From: Bacteroides sp.
GTDB taxonomy: Bacteria > Bacillota > Clostridia > Lachnospirales > Lachnospiraceae
Direction: 5' to 3'
DNA: 64,000 bases
Assembly (NCBI GenBank): GCA_023666705.1
Contig: JAMPBO010000017.1
Span: forward strand, 1 to 64,000
Under the pieces are notes generated by a model. That model was not told the origin of the DNA. It worked only from the letters and a program-made list of their open reading frames with translations, and did no database searches. Shown piece after piece: positions 43,281 to 52,388 of this stretch. Each line of letters begins with the position of its first letter. Positions within the stretch are counted from its first letter, which is position 1. Made by a program: the position numbers and the translations under genes.

Positions 43281-43874
43281 TTATTTGCACATGTTGTTAA
43301 TTTTATCCTCTGAAGCCTTCATTGCCTCCAATGTTAATGTAAGAAGCTTATCAAGCTCCCAGCCCAGCTGCTCCGCACCCCGTTCAATAACATCCCTTGA
43401 ACAGCCTGCCGCAAAGCCCTTGCTTTTATATTTTTTCTTTAATGATTTTAACTCCATATCTTTTGTACTTTTTGATGGACGCATAAGAGCCGCTGCCCAT
43501 ATCAGTCCCGTCAATTCATCCACAGCAAAAAGTACCTTTTCCATCTCATGCTCTGGTGCAACATCAAGTGTTACCCCGCATCCCACGGTAATTCCATATC
43601 CATGTGAAACCACACTATGAATAATATCCTCACCCACGCCAGCTTCTCTAAGCATTTCCGGTGCTTTCAGACAATGCTCGTTCGGATATAATTCAAAATC
43701 GATATCATGGAGCAGCCCAACAATGCCCCAAAATTCCTCATCTTCCTCATATCCCAATTCCTTCGCAAACCACTTCATAACTTCCTCAACTGTGATTGCA
43801 TGCTGCAAATGGAATTCGTCCTTATTAAACTTCTTTAATAACTCATATGCATCTTTTCTCGATATATGTTCCAT
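43281..43874 (-). CDS. HD-domain phosphohydrolase
   Basis: 197 aa. The HD motif is visible as a conserved His in FHLQHAITVEEVM, the HD pair in GLLHDIDFEL, and later HSVVSHGY and FAVDELTGLI. These metal-binding residues suggest an active hydrolase of the HDIG-like group common in Firmicutes, acting on nucleotides or phosphomonoesters. The substrate is unknown. It has its own ribosome site (GGAGAT) and no obvious operon partner. Confidence 0.85.
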   Translation of the reverse strand: MEHISRKDAYELLKKFNKDEFHLQHAITVEEVMKWFAKELGYEEDEEFWGIVGLLHDIDFELYPNEHCLKAPEMLREAGVGEDIIHSVVSHGYGITVGCGVTLDVAPEHEMEKVLFAVDELTGLIWAAALMRPSKSTKDMELKSLKKKYKSKGFAAGCSRDVIERGAEQLGWELDKLLTLTLEAMKASEDKINNMCK

Positions 43875-43925
43875 GGCAATTATCTCCTTTACGTAAAATT
43901 ATTATTATTTATATCATAAAATCGA

Positions 43926-44003
43926 GGCTGTCGCAGCAAGAATTTAAGGCACACACAAAATTACACTGACAACTATGTGCCTTAAATCCTTACTGCGACA
44001 GCC
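43926..44003 (-). terminator. Long hairpin terminator of the LanC-cysK-LanC operon
   Basis: Arms of 28 bases (43926-43953 and 43976-44003) begin GGCTGTCGCAG and pair completely in the minus-strand RNA, with two G-U pairs. In the plus-strand RNA the same two positions are A-C mismatches, so it was shaped for minus-strand transcripts. It lies 22 bp after the LanC-like stop. Confidence 0.65.
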
Positions 44004-44025
44004 CCGTTATATAAACAAGATTGAA

Positions 44026-45399
44026 TTATGCATTTTCAGGATACGGATCATCAAACAACCTGTCCCACTCATATTTGTTTTCCAGAAATAAATATAACTG
44101 CGTTAAAGCAGCGGCAATTCCCGCAGTACCGACTGCATAGGAGATACTCTTTGTTATCCTGCCTGGATTTACTCTCTCAAAAGCCAGCGGAAATGCAATT
44201 CCTTTATTTTGCTTTTCCTGTTCTCCAAGTAAAATGTTACCTGCTGTAACAGCAACCTCCTTCGCTTTATCACTGCCTGTTACAAGGCTATAGTTAATCA
44301 GGAACTGAAGCACTCCCGCAGTACCGCAGCATAAACACGTTGTATTCCAATACCCGGCTGACTGTTTTTCAGGCACCTCCAAATATCTTAATCCCTTGTA
44401 CAAGCCGTCAATAAACTCCAGATATTCTTTTTTCCCTGTTATTTGATGCAATCGGTAAAACAACTTGCTTGTTCCCGCAGGTCCATGACAGCTTGACACA
44501 TAAAATATCGTATCTTCCTTTGGATTATCATGCCACGGTACCAAAAAACCATCCCCCTGCTGAATGGCAATTGCCTTCAGATGAATTGCGGCTTCCATGG
44601 CGGCATTTAAGTATCGCTGGTCCCCTGTTACATCATATGCAACTGTCAACGCATACCCTACACCTGCCGTACCACATTCAAAATTTGGAACCCTCGTTTG
44701 ATTTGGATGTGCCGTACTCAGCCATGCATACCCTCCTCTTGCATCCTTTTCAGCCTTAGCCAAAATGCAGTCAGCAGCTTTGCAAACAGCCCTCGTTACA
44801 GTTTCATCCTGCAGATATTCATTGACCTTTGCCAAATATACAAGCACTCCTCCATCAAACAGCATACTTGTATCACCGTTCCAAAAAATTCCGGTTTCAT
44901 CCTGCTTGGCAGCGTGTATAATCTCATATGCAATTTCTTCCAACACCTTTAAATCCTTTTTGCGTCCTGCATATTTATAATATTGTGCGATAACCATACC
45001 GATTCCTGCCACTCCCATATAAATTCCATATTCGATTCCCGACATATTCAAATTGCTTATGGCAACCTCTGCCTGCTCACGCCAATGGCTGTCCAAATAA
45101 TCAACGGCTTTGGTTGCATATGTAAGATATTTTTCATTCTTTGTTACCTTATACAATTGAAGATATAAATAACCAATTCCGCCTGTTCCTGCAAAATATG
45201 TCAAATCAGGCTTATCTGTTTTATTGCTTGTCGATGGCTCCTGGTCCTTCCAATAAATACCATCCTCCGTTTCTACCATAAATTGTTCCAGATAATCGGA
45301 AACATCTTCTGCTGCCCTTAAATACTCGTCAAATGTCTGTGCTTCCTGCTGACGGAATCGTTTTCCAATTTTAAATTGATAGTCAATATATTTATCCAT
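44026..45399 (-). CDS. LanC-like protein 1 (lanthionine-cyclase fold, CCG type)
   Basis: 457 aa. It shows the series of GxxG turns of the LanC alpha/alpha-toroid: FAGTGGIGYLYL, YMGVAGIGMVIA, FECGTAGVGYAL, CHGPAGTSKLF, CCGTAGVLQFL and YAVGTAGIAAAL. LanC binds a catalytic zinc through one Cys and a Cys-His pair. The matching positions here are Cys304 (SCHG) and Cys357-Cys358 (CLCCG), so the His of the second motif is replaced by Cys, as in CCG-type cyclases such as ProcM. No lantibiotic dehydratase, precursor peptide or transporter is present. It follows the cysteine synthase by 4 bp, so its substrate is more likely a cysteine-derived thiol than a peptide (inference). It is the last gene before a strong terminator. 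Confidence 0.82.
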   Translation of the reverse strand: MDKYIDYQFKIGKRFRQQEAQTFDEYLRAAEDVSDYLEQFMVETEDGIYWKDQEPSTSNKTDKPDLTYFAGTGGIGYLYLQLYKVTKNEKYLTYATKAVDYLDSHWREQAEVAISNLNMSGIEYGIYMGVAGIGMVIAQYYKYAGRKKDLKVLEEIAYEIIHAAKQDETGIFWNGDTSMLFDGGVLVYLAKVNEYLQDETVTRAVCKAADCILAKAEKDARGGYAWLSTAHPNQTRVPNFECGTAGVGYALTVAYDVTGDQRYLNAAMEAAIHLKAIAIQQGDGFLVPWHDNPKEDTIFYVSSCHGPAGTSKLFYRLHQITGKKEYLEFIDGLYKGLRYLEVPEKQSAGYWNTTCLCCGTAGVLQFLINYSLVTGSDKAKEVAVTAGNILLGEQEKQNKGIAFPLAFERVNPGRITKSISYAVGTAGIAAALTQLYLFLENKYEWDRLFDDPYPENA

Positions 45400-45403
45400 C
45401 CTG

Positions 45404-46393
45404 CTACTCCTTTTTGAACATGGATGTACTCAAATACTTGAGCCCTCCATCAGCAACCATCGCAACAATATTTTTGCCTGCATTTTCAGGTCTTTGTGCC
45501 AGCTTCTTTGCCGCCGTAATCGTTCCTGCAGACGACTCACCGACAAATAAACCATCCGTAACGGCAATCTCCCTTGCCGTCTCATACGCTTCTTCCCCTG
45601 ATACGGTAATTACCTCATCATAATTGAAGCCATGCCTCTTATAGAAAAATGGTGCCATATCTTCCGGCACACCGTCCACCAGCATAATCCCGTCAATCTT
45701 CGGTTCTGTTTTTCCCGGTGCAGGAAGTGAATTTGCATCAGGCTGTACAAGAACAATTTTCACATCAGGATTTTTTTCTTTTAAATATTTTCCTGCACCT
45801 GTAATGGTTCCGCCTGTTCCGGACATTGCCACAAATATATCAACCTTTCCCTCCATCTGCTCCCAAATTTCAGGTGCCGTATGCTCATAATGTGCCTTTA
45901 CATTTGCCTCATTTGAGCACTGGTTAATATAGTAGTATCCCTTTTCTTTACCATAAGCCTCCATTGGCTCAAGTAATGTCTGAAAGGTTGCATCCGGTCT
46001 GGACATGGCTTCAATTACACCTGGAATTTCAGCAAAATCAAGAAGCTCTGCCCCATGTGCACGAAGCATCTGGGACCGCTCAACTGTTACGCCCGGTTCA
46101 ATGGCAATTACCACATTGTACCCTCTTGACTTTCCAAATGCCGCCAGTGAAATTCCTGTATTTCCACTTGTATTGTCCAAAATCGTATCTCCCGGCTTGA
46201 GCTTGCCCTCTTTTTCAGCCTCTAAAATCATTTCCTTGACAATTCGGTCCTTCACGCTGCCTGTCGGGTTAAAATACTCCAATTTGCCAAAAATTTTTGC
46301 ACCAAGCCCATTCTTTTTTTCATATCCTGCAATTTCTATCAGTGGTGTATTTCCCACCAAATCAATTAATGATGTTACTGCTTTCCCTGCCAT
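45404..46393 (-). CDS. cysK: Cysteine synthase A (O-acetylserine sulfhydrylase)
   Basis: 329 aa. Hallmarks: NPTGSVKDRI with the PLP lysine, NTSGNTGISLAAFG, and the phosphate cradle SGTGGTITGAG. It makes cysteine from O-acetylserine and sulfide. Near the active site PNPTGSV is conserved, so activity is expected; a related enzyme using other nucleophiles cannot be excluded. It sits between two LanC-like genes with gaps of 4 and 14 bp, so it is part of one transcript. The serine acetyltransferase that supplies its substrate is about 4 kb away in the LysR operon and appears to share the same operator. Confidence 0.92.
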   Translation of the reverse strand: MAGKAVTSLIDLVGNTPLIEIAGYEKKNGLGAKIFGKLEYFNPTGSVKDRIVKEMILEAEKEGKLKPGDTILDNTSGNTGISLAAFGKSRGYNVVIAIEPGVTVERSQMLRAHGAELLDFAEIPGVIEAMSRPDATFQTLLEPMEAYGKEKGYYYINQCSNEANVKAHYEHTAPEIWEQMEGKVDIFVAMSGTGGTITGAGKYLKEKNPDVKIVLVQPDANSLPAPGKTEPKIDGIMLVDGVPEDMAPFFYKRHGFNYDEVITVSGEEAYETAREIAVTDGLFVGESSAGTITAAKKLAQRPENAGKNIVAMVADGGLKYLSTSMFKKE

Positions 46394-46407
46394 AATAATC
46401 GTTCCTC

Positions 46408-47787
46408 CTAAAATAGTTTTTCATATGGGTCCTCAATAAATCTCGGCAATTTGCCGTTACCTGTAATTACGGAATTAAGCACCAGCAGCGATGCTGCACA
46501 GCCTGCACTTCCGTGATACAGCCCAATATATGCATCCGATGTCTCAGGCTCATGTCTGTTCCAGCTTGTATACCAGCGTCGCAGCTTTTGATGCACGTAT
46601 GCATCGCCAATTAAAACCTCCGCCGTCTCATAGGCTGCATCCAAATAACGCTTGTTACCTGTCATCCCATAAATACTTAGAAAATGCTCCAGCATACCCG
46701 CTGCACCACAGCAATAACAATATGTATGCCAATACCCTGAAGAATGTCTGCCCGGTGCTCCTGCCGCCAAAATCCCTTCCGTCAGCTTAATTACAAAATC
46801 CTTATAATTTTTATTTTCCGTCAGCGTATATAACTTATAAAACAGTCTTGAGGTTCCAATCGGTCCCTGACACATTCCCAAATAATACAAGTCCTCCGCT
46901 AACGGATCATTGTAGCGGACGAGTGCCGCTTGTCCATCCTCTGACACATCTGCGACATTCAGGATATATTCGGCACCCTCCTTTGCCAATTCCAGAAATT
47001 CTTTCTCCTGCGTATATTCGTATATACATGCCAAAATATATGCACTGCCTGCCGTTCCATAAAAGAAGCCCGGAAAATATCCTTTTCCTCCACCAAGCGT
47101 TGGAAATGTAGTTGTATCCATTGCAAACCATCTTTTTCCGCCCTGCGGTGCTGCTTCAGCTTTTGACGCAATATAGTTTCCTGCTAACCTTGCCGCTTCT
47201 ATGTATTCCTCTTTTTTCAGGATTTCATATGCATATACAAGGTAGAGAACCAATCCTCCCTCCGCAATAATTCCATATTGTCCATACCATGTAAGACCAC
47301 TTTCATCTACATTTGCAGACGCAATCAAATCCTCCGTAACCGTAATGAAATGCTGTCTGTATTTTTCCTCATTCGTTATCTCATACAACAGCTCTGCCAC
47401 ATAAGCACCACCCGTAGGTCCATTTAAGTGTCCGACATCAAAGCCTGTAAGCGTATTATCTTCATTTCTAAAAGCATGAACGCCCTTGTACTCATGTATC
47501 ACATAATCAATGCCTGCTTTTGCCTCTGTCAGCCATTTTTCGTCCTTTGTGGACAAATACAGCCTGAGGAAGAAAAATGATATTCCCGCTGCCCCTGAAT
47601 ATAAGCTGGTTTCACTTAATAAAAGTCCCCCTTGGGGAATTTCTTTCTCTGGAAGCAAATCCCAATAGTTTCCATATTCCGTTACATGCTCATATTTGTT
47701 AATCCAATTTGCTGTTTCTATGGCTGCCTGTATCAACTTTGCCGAATTCATTGGTTCAAATGCTTTTATCCATTTCTCCTTTGCCAT
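46408..47787 (-). CDS. LanC-like protein 2 (lanthionine-cyclase fold, CCG type)
   Basis: 459 aa, a paralogue of the LanC-like protein at 44026-45399. The toroid turns are SLYSGAAGISFFFL, GPTGGAYVAELLY, FFYGTAGSAYILA, CQGPIGTSRLF, CCGAAGMLEHFL and YHGSAGCAASLLV. The zinc-ligand positions are Cys306 (MCQG) and Cys359-Cys360 (CYCCG). The residue after the first Cys is Gln here and His in the paralogue, so the two proteins may differ in catalysis or form a pair of unlike subunits. It is the first gene of the three-gene operon and starts 29 bp after a 24-bp operator shared with the LysR gene. Confidence 0.82.
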   Translation of the reverse strand: MAKEKWIKAFEPMNSAKLIQAAIETANWINKYEHVTEYGNYWDLLPEKEIPQGGLLLSETSLYSGAAGISFFFLRLYLSTKDEKWLTEAKAGIDYVIHEYKGVHAFRNEDNTLTGFDVGHLNGPTGGAYVAELLYEITNEEKYRQHFITVTEDLIASANVDESGLTWYGQYGIIAEGGLVLYLVYAYEILKKEEYIEAARLAGNYIASKAEAAPQGGKRWFAMDTTTFPTLGGGKGYFPGFFYGTAGSAYILACIYEYTQEKEFLELAKEGAEYILNVADVSEDGQAALVRYNDPLAEDLYYLGMCQGPIGTSRLFYKLYTLTENKNYKDFVIKLTEGILAAGAPGRHSSGYWHTYCYCCGAAGMLEHFLSIYGMTGNKRYLDAAYETAEVLIGDAYVHQKLRRWYTSWNRHEPETSDAYIGLYHGSAGCAASLLVLNSVITGNGKLPRFIEDPYEKLF

Positions 47788-47815: not shown

Positions 47816-47839
47816 AATCCTATTTGTTTTGTAGGTTTT
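47816..47839 (-). promoter_or_regulatory. Operator of the LanC-cysK-LanC operon (cysteine-regulon site 2)
   Basis: On the minus strand the site reads AAAACCTA, two bases, AAACA, one base, ATAGG, one base, TT. It matches 20 of 24 positions of the site at 52247-52270 before the LysR gene. A -10-like TATTAT abuts it on the upstream side. Confidence 0.65.
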
Positions 47840-47902
47840 ATAATACTACGTATGCCCTGACTTGTCTAATTACAATTAGTTTGAACATGTTATAAATTTA
47901 CG

Positions 47903-49084
47903 TTATAACACTGCATTTTTAATTCTATCCAATGCTTCCCTTAAAACGCTCCTGCTGGTTGCTATATTAATGCGTTCAAAGCCCTCTCCTGCCTTACCAA
48001 AAATAGCACCACTGTCCAGCCAAAGCTTCGCTTTATTCACAATCAAGTTTTCCAAATCCTGTTCACGCAAATTCAACCCTCTGAAATCAAGCCAGATAAG
48101 ATACGTTCCCTCAGGCTCAATCAGCTTAATTTGCGGCAGATTTTGGGCAATGTAGTTCCTTACAAACGCTAAATTGTCCTGTAAATATTTCTTGAGCTCC
48201 CGATACCACTCCTCCCCATATTTATAAGCCGCCTCACATGCAACAATTCCGATTGTGTTAAGCTGGCTATACCCTGATGCAGCTATTTCTTTCCTAAATG
48301 CACGACGTAATTTACTGTTTGGAATTATGATATTCGATATTTGTAAGCCTGCAAGATTAAAGGTTTTTGCAGGCGATGTGCATGTGATAACGATATCCTT
48401 AAGCCGACTATCCACATTTAATAAAGGGGTATGCCGAAAGCCATCAAACGTAAAATCTCCATGAATTTCATCGCTCACAATCAACACATTATGTTTCAGG
48501 CAAATCTCAGCAATTTGTTTTAACTCCTCATATGTCCATACTCTGCCCACAGGATTATGCGGACTGCAAAGGAGAAATAATTTCACATGATGTTCTACTA
48601 TTTTATTTTCAAAATCCTCAAAATCGATATGATATTTCCCATCTTCCCAAAGCACAAGGTCATTGCTGATAACCCTCCTGTGGTTATCTGTAATTACTTC
48701 CGTAAATGGATAGTATACCGGCTGCTGAATCAGCACCGTATCATTTTCACTTGTATAGCTCCTTACTGCCATAGCAAGTGCATATACAACCCCGGGCGTT
48801 TTTACCAGCCAGCTTTGCTCTATATTTAAGCCATGGTGTTCACGAAGCCAGCCTGCCACTGCATTAAAATATGCTTCTCCCGTTTCGGTATACCCAAAAA
48901 TCCCATGTGCAACCCTTTTTTGTATTTCATCCAACACAAGGCTGGAGGTTTTAAAATCCATGTCAGCCACCCAAAGCGGCAATACGTCCGCAGGTTTTCC
49001 TCTTTTTACGGCGAAATCATATTTTATACTGTCTGTGTTTTTCCTATTAATGACTTCATCAAAATTTGTATTTTGTTCAACCAT
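47903..49084 (-). CDS. MalY/PatB-family PLP-dependent C-S lyase (cystathionine beta-lyase type)
   Basis: 393 aa from the ATG at 49084, which has AGGAG seven bases upstream. The longer frame runs back into the previous gene's end. The PLP lysine is in TSPAKTFNLAGLQ, and the signature PLWVADMDFKT near the start marks the MalY/PatB group. These cleave cystathionine or cystine to a thiol, pyruvate and ammonia, and take part in methionine synthesis or sulfide release. It directly follows the trans-sulfuration gene, so it is probably the methionine-pathway beta-lyase. Confidence 0.85.
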   Translation of the reverse strand: MVEQNTNFDEVINRKNTDSIKYDFAVKRGKPADVLPLWVADMDFKTSSLVLDEIQKRVAHGIFGYTETGEAYFNAVAGWLREHHGLNIEQSWLVKTPGVVYALAMAVRSYTSENDTVLIQQPVYYPFTEVITDNHRRVISNDLVLWEDGKYHIDFEDFENKIVEHHVKLFLLCSPHNPVGRVWTYEELKQIAEICLKHNVLIVSDEIHGDFTFDGFRHTPLLNVDSRLKDIVITCTSPAKTFNLAGLQISNIIIPNSKLRRAFRKEIAASGYSQLNTIGIVACEAAYKYGEEWYRELKKYLQDNLAFVRNYIAQNLPQIKLIEPEGTYLIWLDFRGLNLREQDLENLIVNKAKLWLDSGAIFGKAGEGFERINIATSRSVLREALDRIKNAVL

Positions 49085-49121: not shown

Positions 49122-50294
49122 CTATATATACAGTCCCTTATAACCATCATAGGAATCAATTGCATATTTAAGATCCCTAATCAAGTCCTCTTTATCCTCA
49201 ATTCCTGTAGACATACGCAGAACACAATCCGTAATCCCATTCGCCATCCGTATTTCCCAAGGAACATCCGCATGGGTCTGTGTACAAGGATATGTAAGCA
49301 ATGTTTCAACCCCGCCCAAGCTTTCCGCAAACGGAATAATCTTAGTATGCTTCAAAATATGCTGTGCCAGTTCTTTACTTTCCAGCTCAAATGTAATCAT
49401 TGAGCCAAACCCTCTCGCCTGACCTTTGCAAATCTCATAGCCACAGCTTCCTTCAATCCCCGGATAATACACCCGTTTAACTTTAGGCTCTGACAGTAAA
49501 TATTCAACAATTGCCTGTGCATTTTCCTGTGACTTTTCCATTCGGATTGGGAGCGTTTTTATTCCACGCAAAATCAACCAACTGTCCATCGGTGCAAGCC
49601 CCGAACCAACCGTTTTAATGATAAACCGCATTTTCTCAGATAGTTCCTCGGAATTGGTAACGATAAAGCCCGAAAGCGTATCATTGTGTCCCCCAAGAAA
49701 TTTTGTTCCGCTATGAATTACAATATCTGCACCAAGGTCCAAAGGATTTTGAAAATATGGCGTCAAAAATGTATTGTCAACAATCAAAATCAAATTATGC
49801 CGTTTTGCAATGTCAGCCATTTTTCTGATATCTATTACACTCATCATCGGATTGGTCGGCGTCTCAATATAAATTGCTTTTGTGTTATCCCTTACATAGC
49901 TTTCCACATCAGCCTTGCTACAGTTAATATGTGAAAATGTAATTCCATTTTTTTCATTAATATGTTTAAAAAGTCTGATACTGCCTCCATATAAATCAGC
50001 GTCCGTTATCAAATGGTCGCCCGGACAAAACAGCTCCATCAATGCCGTAATCGCTGCCATCCCGCTTGAAAAAGCCAAAGCATCAATTCCATTTTCCAAA
50101 GCTGCCACTACTTTTTCAAGCTGCTGCCTTGTGGGATTTTGCAGTCTGGAATAATCAAAGCCTGTACTTTTTCCCACCTCCGGATGTGCATATGTAGCTG
50201 TCTGATAGATTGGAAAGCTAATTGCACCTGTTGATTCTATATTCCGTTCCATTCCCTCGCCATAAATACATTTTGTTGCAAACTTAAATTCCAT
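49122..50294 (-). CDS. Trans-sulfuration PLP enzyme (cystathionine gamma-synthase/lyase family)
   Basis: 390 aa from the ATG at 50294. A GTG three codons upstream with AAAGGG is an alternative start. Family marks: SGMAAITALMEL, ETPTNPMMSVIDI and the PLP lysine in HSGTKFLGGHNDTLSG. The enzyme joins or cleaves cysteine, homocysteine and their O-acyl precursors; sequence alone does not separate the gamma-synthase from the gamma-lyase. It is followed by the beta-lyase gene and preceded by serine acetyltransferase, which supports a role in sulfur amino acid interconversion. Confidence 0.88.
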   Translation of the reverse strand: MEFKFATKCIYGEGMERNIESTGAISFPIYQTATYAHPEVGKSTGFDYSRLQNPTRQQLEKVVAALENGIDALAFSSGMAAITALMELFCPGDHLITDADLYGGSIRLFKHINEKNGITFSHINCSKADVESYVRDNTKAIYIETPTNPMMSVIDIRKMADIAKRHNLILIVDNTFLTPYFQNPLDLGADIVIHSGTKFLGGHNDTLSGFIVTNSEELSEKMRFIIKTVGSGLAPMDSWLILRGIKTLPIRMEKSQENAQAIVEYLLSEPKVKRVYYPGIEGSCGYEICKGQARGFGSMITFELESKELAQHILKHTKIIPFAESLGGVETLLTYPCTQTHADVPWEIRMANGITDCVLRMSTGIEDKEDLIRDLKYAIDSYDGYKGLYI

Positions 50295-50394
50295 AATAAT
50301 CACTCATCCCTTTCGTTTCACTCAAGCACAAATAGTCATGAAATATCTTATTTTTCACACTAAATCATCCTTTTATTATTCAAATAAATGCTTT

Positions 50395-51312
50395 TTACAT
50401 ATCCGTATCAGACATTCGGTTTTTTATCTTTAATTCCGGCATGAGTGCTGATACTCTTGTATTTGCAGGTATGGATTCTGTAATAAACGTATTACCTGCA
50501 ATCACGGAATTTCTACCGATAACCGTTTCTCCGCCTAGCACAGTGGCATTTGCGTAAATCACTACATGATCCTCTATTGTCGGATGACGTTTTACGCCCG
50601 ATAATTGCTGTCCCTTCATGGTTGACAGTGCACCGAGCGTCACTCCCTGATAAAGCTTTACGTGATTTCCTATTTTTGTTGTTTCACCGATTACAATTCC
50701 CGTTCCATGGTCTATAAAAAAATACTCTCCGATATCTGCTCCCGGATTGATATCAATTCCCGTCTTTCCATGTGCGTATTCTGTCATAATTCTTGGCATG
50801 TATGGAATTTTGAGCTGATACAATTCATGTGCAATCCGATACACAAATATTGCAAATATCCCCGGATATGAAAAGATGATTTCCTCCCTGTCGGACGCCG
50901 CCGGGTCTCCCGCAAGTTCAGCGTCCACATCCTTTAATAGCAATTCCTGAATATCAGGCAGTCGGTTTATAAATTGAAATGTCAGGTCTTCCACTTCTTT
51001 ATCAAACTCTTCTCCTCTTGTTCGTGTTGTCCGAAATAAAAGTGCCAAACGGATTTGCTTAAACAGCTTTTCATATACAATTGCAAGTGCGTTGCCCGCA
51101 AAATTGCCAAGCTTGACATATGCCGTATTTTCCTCCCCAAAAAAACCCGGAAATATAATTTTTTGAATTTCTATAAGCGTGTCAATGATTTCTGACTGCT
51201 TTGGCAAACGCTCTCCAATTCCCATTTCAAACATTTCCTGTTTTTTATAATTATGGTTTAATCGTTCTGACACCTTGCTAATCTTGCATATCACTGCATT
51301 ATCTTCTTTCAT
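50395..51312 (-). CDS. cysE: Serine O-acetyltransferase
   Basis: 305 aa. The C-terminal 130 residues are a left-handed beta-helix acetyltransferase: [20 protein letters not shown], then [19 protein letters not shown]. The N-terminal helical domain makes it an EpsC-type SAT, longer than E. coli CysE. It makes O-acetylserine from serine and acetyl-CoA, feeding CysK. It starts 15 bp after the LysR gene, so the regulator and SAT are cotranscribed. Feedback by cysteine is usual for the family. Confidence 0.88.
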
Positions 51313-51327
51313 TTGTCCGTACCTTTC

Positions 51328-52230
51328 TTAGTTATTTCCGTATTGCTTCAGGATAGATATATATTTTTCTCCGAGAATACTAAGGGGCATTTTCTTTTTC
51401 TTTATATACCCAATTGTCATTTTGTCCTGTGAGTCTAAAGGAATTGCCACATATCCATCACCGTTTAATTTCTCACATATTATTCCTGAGCATAATGTAA
51501 AGCCGTTCATCCCTGTCATAAGGTTTAACATCGTAGCCCTGTCGTCTGCCTTTATAATTCTTTTATACTTATGGGTAGGAAACATTTCTTCCGCATAATA
51601 AAACGAATTATTCTCTCCCTGTTCAAACGACAGACACGGATAATCAGCAAGCTCATCAAAAGCAATTTTTTTCTTTTGTGCCAACGGATGCTCTGCACTC
51701 ATGTAGACATATACATCGCACTGAAATAGCGGAACAAATTCCAACTCCTTATCTATCAGTATTTTATTAAGTGCTTTTTCGTTAAAATCATTTCTTGATA
51801 TTACGCCAATCTCACTTCGAAATTTTTCAACATTTTCTATCAACTCTGCCGTTTTTGTCTCATGTACTGCAAGTTCATAATCATTCAGCTTAAATTCCTC
51901 CGCAAGTGTCATAAATGCTTCAACCGCAAATGAATAATGCTGCATGGACACGCTAAATTTATTATCTAAATTTTCACCGGATGAATAGCGTTCTTTTAGC
52001 ATTTCACTCATTTCTACAATCTGTCTTGCGTAGCTCAAAAGATTTTCGCCTTCCGTTGTAACGATTATACCTCTCTGGTTTCTAATGAAAATTTCTATTT
52101 GCAGCTCATCCTCCAAGTCTTTGATTGCACTTGATAATGCAGGCTGTGAAATAAAAAGTTCCGCCGCTGCTCTATTCATTGATTTTGTTTCTGCAATTTT
52201 GACTGTATATAATAACTGTTGTAATGTCAT
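51328..52230 (-). CDS. LysR-family regulator of sulfur metabolism (CysR/CmbR-like)
   Basis: 300 aa. The N-terminal winged helix is typical (TKSMNRAAAELFISQPALSS, then IKDLEDELQIEIFIRNQRG), followed by a periplasmic-binding-protein-like effector domain. It is the first gene of the operon with serine acetyltransferase and two trans-sulfuration genes. Position and gene content suggest it senses O-acetylserine or a related metabolite, as CysR/CmbR/YtlI do. An 8-bp-armed palindrome 17 bp before its start is a likely autoregulatory site, and a near copy precedes the LanC operon. Confidence 0.85.
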   Translation of the reverse strand: MTLQQLLYTVKIAETKSMNRAAAELFISQPALSSAIKDLEDELQIEIFIRNQRGIIVTTEGENLLSYARQIVEMSEMLKERYSSGENLDNKFSVSMQHYSFAVEAFMTLAEEFKLNDYELAVHETKTAELIENVEKFRSEIGVISRNDFNEKALNKILIDKELEFVPLFQCDVYVYMSAEHPLAQKKKIAFDELADYPCLSFEQGENNSFYYAEEMFPTHKYKRIIKADDRATMLNLMTGMNGFTLCSGIICEKLNGDGYVAIPLDSQDKMTIGYIKKKKMPLSILGEKYISILKQYGNN

Positions 52231-52246
52231 GTTATACCGCCTTTCT

Positions 52247-52305
52247 AAACCTATCTGTTTAATAGGTTTTTAGGACATCATACCACCCAACTATCTTATT
52301 TACAA
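52247..52305 (-). promoter_or_regulatory. Promoter and operator of the LysR-cysE operon (cysteine-regulon site 1)
   Basis: On the minus strand TTGTAA (52300-52305) and TATGAT (52277-52282) are separated by 17 bp. The operator (52247-52270) contains a perfect inverted repeat, AAACCTAT and ATAGGTTT with a 7-bp centre (52247-52269). It lies at the expected start of transcription. Confidence 0.65.
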
Positions 52306-52388
52306 TATAATTATACAAAAATATTTCCGTACAGACTAATATATATATTCTATGTTGTGTTATAAATTATGCTTATAAGTGGGGATAG

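Follow-up and report, generated by a model that had tools for sequence, protein, structure and literature searches.

LanC-fold proteins paired with a CysK-type enzyme suggest a module of cysteine metabolism outside lanthipeptide synthesis

The closest described relatives of the proteins treated here are class I lanthipeptide cyclases such as NisC and MadC, with a Cys-Cys-His zinc triad, and the eukaryotic proteins LanCL1 and LanCL2, which add glutathione. Bacteroidales, too, have stand-alone LanC-like genes. According to the available passages of the report on them, the genes from its examined clusters have no zinc motif, and their neighbours are radical SAM or carbohydrate genes (PMC10352776). 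On the sulfur side, the enzymes CysK, CysM and cystathionine beta-synthase (CBS) belong to the PALP family and carry a lysine for pyridoxal phosphate (PLP), and Firmicutes have a CymR/CysK regulon. Our study concerns a locus that touches all of these. In a 64,000-nucleotide stretch of contig JAMPBO010000017.1 (assembly GCA_023666705.1 of a gut bacterium, labelled Bacteroides sp. and placed by GTDB in the Lachnospiraceae; hereafter, the window), two LanC genes flank a cysK-like gene on the minus strand in the order lanC1-cysK-lanC2. The intergenic gaps of 14 and 4 bp and the positions given in a preliminary description of this DNA are confirmed by the coordinates (Table 1). The locus resembles the Bacteroidales genes in having no LanB, but its LanC proteins keep the zinc-position cysteines and have a CysK partner. 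The comparative sequence evidence gives good support to the view that LanC and CysK form a conserved, co-inherited module of cysteine and sulfur metabolism with no sign of lanthipeptide partners. We found no description of this pairing in the open-access literature; the one paper there that names both LanC and cysK concerns Alzheimer's disease.

The pairing recurs among relatives of the window's LanC proteins. A scan of species genomes returned 312 LanC relatives, of which the best 80 loci were counted. A same-strand CysK gene lies within 600 bp of LanC in 59 of these 80, or 59 of 70 when the 10 loci cut by contig ends are set aside; the order is LanC-CysK in 45, CysK-LanC in 6, CysK-LanC-CysK in 5 and CysK-LanC-LanC in 3, and LanC has no adjacent CysK in 21. 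The preliminary description had staked its proposal beforehand on conserved pairing, and on this point it held. The LanC-cysK-LanC order that it proposed to search for was found in none of the 80 relatives. Within the genus, LanC relatives occur in 9 of 37 genomes, all nine with LanC in clusters with CysK and in varied gene contexts. The wider distribution is patchy: 1 of 398 phylum-spread genomes at E 1e-40 (the window's own), and within the family 8 of 100 genomes reach E below 1e-50, whereas a cut-off of E 0.001 gives 38, the additional ones being weak or partial matches.

LanC and CysK also diverge together. Pairwise distances of LanC and of its paired CysK correlate with r 0.875 over 61 loci, after four near-duplicate loci were dropped. 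Across 21 loci that also encode a cystathionine-lyase-type enzyme (CGL), r is 0.90 for LanC-CysK and 0.02 for LanC-CGL; across 18 loci with a PatB-family C-S lyase, the values are 0.88 for LanC-CysK and 0.05 for LanC-PatB. The pair therefore moves as one unit from neighbourhood to neighbourhood, and its co-divergence supports functional coupling of the two proteins.

The CysK partner belongs to a clade of its own. The window's CysK is in the PALP family and has the PLP lysine and substrate-carboxylate loop of the CysK/CBS superfamily; the earlier name of the middle gene needs correction in that the protein scores under the NCBIfam cut-offs of the listed cysK, cysM and CBS models (262.7 against TIGR01139, cut-off 350.95, where the genome's other CysK reaches 450.3). 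In a tree of 68 CysK rows sampled from LanC loci (93 before near-copies were removed), CysKs adjacent to LanC group in a single clade (47 rows, support 99/97); the ORF picker gave two of its members the tag FAR, yet by tblastn they lie next to LanC. Members come from Bacillota, Spirochaetota, Fibrobacterota and Actinomycetota, plus one row labelled Chloroflexota. Outside the clade fall the genome's second and third CysK, E. coli CysK and CysM, the CysKs of nitrogenase-like clusters, and three LanC-adjacent CysKs, two of them canonical-like on LanC's other side and one a long branch. The CysK-like genes within nitrogenase-like clusters (L039:2199-3215, L047:2442-3506 and relatives) form long-branch clades of their own and are another unexplained CysK variant.

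An alignment of the paired CysKs suggests that the chemistry of the PLP site is kept. Lys48, Ser76-Gly-Asn-Thr79, Gln158, Gly192-Thr193 and Ser287 are invariant in 68 of 68 rows (64 distinct sequences), from which six rows had been removed by hand (three canonical-like or long-branch, three near-copies of such rows) and to which the two FAR-tagged rows adjacent to LanC by tblastn had been added. Compared with known CysKs, the paired enzymes have the GIG segment of the E. coli protein replaced and carry an insertion, with Asp234 invariant. We infer that the paired CysK still forms aminoacrylate but meets a different nucleophile.

The two LanC proteins are family members by score and fold: both ORFs exceed the curated PF05147 cut-off of 23.2 (99.5 and 91.6 bits) and have the alpha/alpha toroid fold. 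They are 28% identical to each other, and the closest relative of LanC2 among the fetched loci, in L056, is 41% identical to it. Cysteine occupies all three zinc positions in 73 of 73 aligned LanCs. The third is thus Cys instead of the His of NisC, MadC, LanCL1 and LanCL2, and the partner is a PLP enzyme; a Cys triad is known from ProcM-type LanM. The family name PF05147 is what speaks for the window pair being lanthipeptide cyclases with dehydratase and precursor encoded elsewhere. Genome-wide (2.86 Mb), PF05147 matches just these two LanC ORFs; since LanM, LanKC and LanL contain this domain too, they are not seen either. The genome has no match to LanB (PF04738), although this absence is weak because no control genome gave a match. 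The neighbouring proteins scanned in the window, 10 in each of two scans, are not products of lanthipeptide genes, in agreement with the preliminary description, and a LanB and precursor nearby, the mark of a class I cluster, are absent from the locus. The small ORFs listed in the gaps include no plausible precursor peptide (unlinked precursors were not searched for), and the usual partner of these LanCs is CysK. With no partner genes recognised, we disfavour the cyclase reading and consider it very improbable.

A second possibility is repair or detoxification as by LanCL proteins, with LanC adding cysteine or a CysK-made small thiol to dehydroamino acids of proteins or of free metabolites. 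Foldseek places LanCL1 and LanCL2 first among its matches, with other LanC proteins tying by Z, and LanCL1 performs such addition chemistry according to the passages available (PMC9934072). Both LanCL1 histidine positions hold His in 40 of 73 aligned rows, and the acid His at the position of LanCL1 His219 is present in 45. The window proteins, which are 16-20% identical to the LanCL proteins and tied genetically to CysK, differ at these very sites: His219 is replaced by Tyr in LanC1 and Cys in LanC2, and His277 corresponds to Gln and His, respectively. The same source, as far as its available text goes, lists mutation of His219 as deleterious in NisC, SpaC, LctM, ProcM and LanCL1/2 (PMC9934072). 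Loss of the acid His in both window LanCs speaks against this pair simply adding thiols to dehydroalanine in the LanCL manner, and repair would leave the paired CysK clade and the cysteine operators described below unexplained. We therefore regard it as unlikely.

Two predicted operators link the module to cysteine genes. CCTAY-N7-RTAGG was defined from the window and its relatives, not from a published CymR motif, and GTTATAR-N7-YTATAAC is a palindrome that, by its shape, would be a LysR-type site. Each occurs before lanC1 and again before a LysR gene that heads an upstream sulfur operon (Table 1). In 79 upstream regions (those of LanC in 77 loci, plus the window's lanC1 and LysR), CCTAY-N7-RTAGG with one mismatch is found in 31, against a shuffle mean of 1.0, and the GTTATAR box, with a spacer of 4-10 and one mismatch, in 18, where shuffling gives 0.17; this enrichment is partly circular, since the boxes were chosen by inspecting the window and its relatives. 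Across 1.39 Mb of neighbourhoods, which include some loci fetched twice from the same contig, 25 of 34 exact CCTAY sites could be assigned to the start of a LanC, CGL, Rrf2, PatB, IscS, CysK or LysR gene; of the exact GTTATAR boxes, 16 of 17 could be assigned likewise, to LanC, CGL, PatB, LysR or CysK. A 24-base consensus built from the two window sites matched them exactly by construction, and its reversed control also matched at up to 3 mismatches; given this flaw, our argument uses the shorter boxes.

The genome of the window has five exact CCTAY sites. Four precede lanC1, LysR, the bona fide cysK and a NifS-type cysteine desulfurase, and the fifth lies inside panB. Evidence less dependent on the choice of motif comes from the sites at cysK and nifS. 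The reversed pattern matches 22 places in this genome against 5, so the motif is not over-represented and only its placement is telling. The GTTATAR box, allowing up to 1 mismatch, has 10 sites there against 5 in the reversed control, and eight of the ten lie elsewhere. The operons of LysR and lanC share their predicted operator with cysK and nifS, which recalls the Firmicutes CymR/CysK regulon; the difference is LanC-CysK as an added, predicted target. An Rrf2 regulator gene directly behind the bona fide cysK scores about equally to the IscR and CymR models, under both cut-offs, and its position is like that of cymR beside cysK in Clostridium acetobutylicum, as described in the accessible part of the source (PMC3828012). 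Four loci (L030, L031, L032 and L033) have LanC-CysK pairs without another recognised sulfur gene and carry an exact GTTATAR-N7-YTATAAC box approximately 92 bp before LanC.

Neighbouring genes place the pair among sulfur enzymes. The operon upstream of lanC1 encodes the LysR regulator, a serine acetyltransferase-like protein, CGL and PatB; lanC1-cysK-lanC2 has its own putative promoter and operator within the 115-bp gap below patB. The suggestion in the preliminary description of a thiol or cysteine context is thus borne out by neighbours and operators, although it had overlooked both this LysR-cysE-CGL-PatB operon and the common predicted operators. Among the 80 loci, CGL occurs in 27, PatB in 25, ABC-transporter genes (of the classes seen) in 17, nitrogenase-like D/K genes in 13 and Rrf2 in 11. 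The two lyases would fit a different role for the pair, in which it produces a free thioether, for instance lanthionine or cystathionine, with cysteine or homocysteine as the thiol, as an intermediate or a cell-wall or secreted metabolite that PatB and CGL cleave again. Neither lyase co-diverges with LanC or CysK, however, and both are missing from most fetched loci (many of them short contigs). PLP enzymes also make such thioethers without LanC, and we judge this role distinctly improbable.

The nitrogenase-like D/K genes occur near LanC in Clostridia and Treponema (L039, L042, L044, L046, L047, L049, L050, L051, L052, L067, L091, L093 and L115), and several of these loci have two D/K pairs. 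NifH-like genes accompany them in 8 of the 13 loci, NifX-like in 8 and NifB-like in 7. Three of four D/K-type families were searched against solved structures, and each had methylthio-alkane reductase 9FMG/9D9U as its best match (302 versus 121 bits for the next match, 235 versus 122, and 241 versus 104). 9FMG is the Rhodospirillum rubrum enzyme, according to the passages available (PMC12552129). A preprint, in its accessible text, describes clusters from other anaerobes in which MarHDK homologues occur together with cysteine genes, and that text contains neither 'LanC' nor 'lanthionine' (PMC10418091). The resemblance to MarBHDK salvage thus lies in the D/K genes around LanC in 13 of 80 loci; LanC goes unmentioned in the literature passages on that pathway, and we found no work in the open-access literature joining lanthionine synthetase with nitrogenase-like genes. 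In the genus, 7 of 37 genomes have LanC and PF00148, 2 LanC only, 2 PF00148 only and 26 neither (Fisher p 1.1e-4, for genomes that are related and not independent), with LanC and PF00148 on separate contigs in the co-occurring genomes. The window's genome has no PF00148 match, and the genus association was not repeated in the family. Dependence on methylthio-alkane reductase was therefore rejected, and nitrogenase-like genes are not required.

How the pair might work can be proposed tentatively. The reading that we prefer, at a confidence that stops short of probable, is that LanC activates a small thiol, which the aminoacrylate of its CysK-type PLP enzyme then captures. Cysteine shortage would switch the operon on and CysE would supply O-acetylserine, which the CysK-type enzyme would convert to PLP-bound aminoacrylate. 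Zinc held by the three cysteines of LanC would capture and activate a small thiol, which might be sulfide, methanethiol or a larger compound. Joined to the aminoacrylate, this thiol would yield cysteine or its S-substituted derivative, and the CGL and PatB lyases encoded next door may then interconvert products. The LanC and CysK proteins would presumably touch. More doubtful is a broader version, a new kind of sulfur-assimilation enzyme: a LanC that has departed from lanthipeptide chemistry would form a zinc-thiolate donor system with its CysK-like partner. The system would capture a thiol that is scarce or unusual, such as methanethiol freed from thioethers by methylthio-alkane reductase, and hand it to PLP aminoacrylate, yielding a cysteine derivative in cysteine-starved gut and rumen anaerobes.

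Alternatively, LanC may serve the CysK-type enzyme as a regulator or scaffold, tuning the sensing of O-acetylserine or cysteine without catalysis. CysE binds CysK elsewhere, which offers an analogy. The tight co-divergence, the two LanC proteins per CysK in the window and the loss of the acid His in both are all consistent with such a role, as is the binding of CymR to CysK reported in the available passages of two papers (PMC3828012, PMC2869319). The invariant zinc-position cysteines point instead to metal chemistry, although zinc could still be structural, and this role seems rather unlikely to us.

Several observations weigh against thiol activation by a dedicated LanC-CysK pair. A PLP cysteine synthase is not known to need a zinc partner to use sulfide. 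Joint transfer without contact can also produce co-divergence, and because the tree CysKs were drawn from LanC loci, the evidence on the clade away from LanC comes from the window's genome and the plasmid and phage collections. Eleven of the 80 loci have full flanks and no adjacent CysK: six of them have a CysK-type gene farther away (L039, L044, L046, L050, L051 and L067), L060 has LanC inside a LysR-CGL-PatB operon, L106 has it near CGL genes, and L054 and L090 show no sulfur gene. Sampling one genome per genus in the family, PF00148 is found in 4 of the 8 genomes with LanC and in 21 of the other 92 (p 0.10). A single-sequence structure model of CysK was poor (pLDDT 41) and was not used.

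The remaining features of the locus are collected in Table 1. The promoter assigned to lanC1-cysK-lanC2 is putative, the consensus scan having found 39 such sites in the region against 32.7 expected. The preliminary description placed a strong terminator after lanC2. An uninterrupted hairpin of 33 bp is indeed present as a candidate terminator; only a weak U run (AUUUUAU) follows it, and it is absent from the listing of a consensus terminator scan, which takes loops of 3-8. Its ends are GGGGCTGTCGCAG-like, with few related ends elsewhere in the window and the fetched loci. It may act as a terminator, or may be a small inverted-repeat element instead. Just beyond it, an HD-domain protein (43281-43874) has copies of 77-85% identity beside LanC or PatB in L049, L050, L061, L067 and L088 and may belong to the same sulfur neighbourhood. 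An Rfam search of the window for RNA switches gave no match.

Table 1. Genes and predicted control elements of the lanC1-cysK-lanC2 locus, in window coordinates. Residue numbers of LanC1 exclude the initiator Met.
Feature	Position	Strand	Description
lanC1	46408..47787	-	LanC-fold protein; zinc-position Cys C305, C358, C359; Y242/Q306 replace the LanCL1 His219/His277 pair
cysK-like PLP enzyme	45404..46393	-	In the LanC-linked clade; residues that bind PLP and substrate are conserved, the GIG segment is replaced
lanC2	44026..45399	-	Second LanC; zinc-position Cys kept; C242/H306 (lanC1 numbering)
Hairpin after lanC2, candidate terminator	43923..44006	-	Uninterrupted, 33 bp; 18-nt loop; -61.6 kcal/mol; z -10.6
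CCTAY-N7-RTAGG (CCTAC-N7-ATAGG), predicted operator	47819..47835		Between putative -10 and lanC1; sequence motif
Putative sigma-70 promoter of lanC1-cysK-lanC2	47840..47868	-	TAGACA-17-TATTAT; consensus match only
GTTATAA-N7-TTATAAC, palindromic box	47889..47909		Upstream of lanC1; genome's only exact copy; same box before LanC in relatives
patB, PatB-family C-S lyase	47903..49084	-	Last gene of upstream operon; TIGR04350 480 bits, cut-off 340; start set at 49084, longest ORF starts 49165
CGL, Cys/Met-metabolism PLP enzyme	49122..50303	-	PF01053 464 bits; nearest model cystathionine gamma-lyase/homocysteine desulfhydrase (PRK07671, 465 bits, under cut-off 594)
cysE/epsC-like serine O-acetyltransferase	50395..51312	-	TIGR01172 156 bits (cut-off 210.65), EpsC 148.5 (cut-off 150); under both
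LysR-family regulator	51328..52230	-	First gene of sulfur operon; PF00126 and PF03466 above cut-off
CCTAY-N7-RTAGG operator, second copy	52250..52266		Before LysR operon; sequence motif
GTTATAR box, second copy	52359..52379		Before LysR operon; 1 mismatch; sequence motif

Records of mobile elements add one further pair. The viral_contigs collection holds no LanC relative. One LanC-CysK pair (L156:11690-14020) lies on MT835884.1, a 15.9-kb record from human faeces that is labelled Bacteriophage sp. and has no annotation, with a CysK 81% identical to the type in L010 and a LanC 54% identical; the record is probably bacterial DNA. When the phage collection was searched with CysK first, 78 records matched, the best (49.8%, the only one examined) being this record with its adjacent LanC, which counts in favour of the unit, and the next reaching 46.7%. 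In the plasmid collection, five records match LanC, and the two that were opened (H1 and H2) have no CysK alongside it; the CysK-first search gave 576 records, all below 60% identity, and the 12 listed (41.7-45.0%) are named cysteine synthase.

Genome mining can count stand-alone bacterial LanC genes as lantibiotic-type, as in the passages available from one such survey (PMC10352776). By partner, co-divergence and promoter sites, the recurrent set described here belongs to cysteine metabolism instead, and the LanC-CysK module suggests an undescribed step of sulfur metabolism, not antibiotic making. It poses a testable question of two genes about a role of LanC-type proteins outside lanthipeptides, one that also bears on the LanCL proteins. 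For rumen and gut anaerobes, the pair may be a missing step of organic-sulfur salvage, beside the methylthio-alkane reductases that release methane and ethylene.

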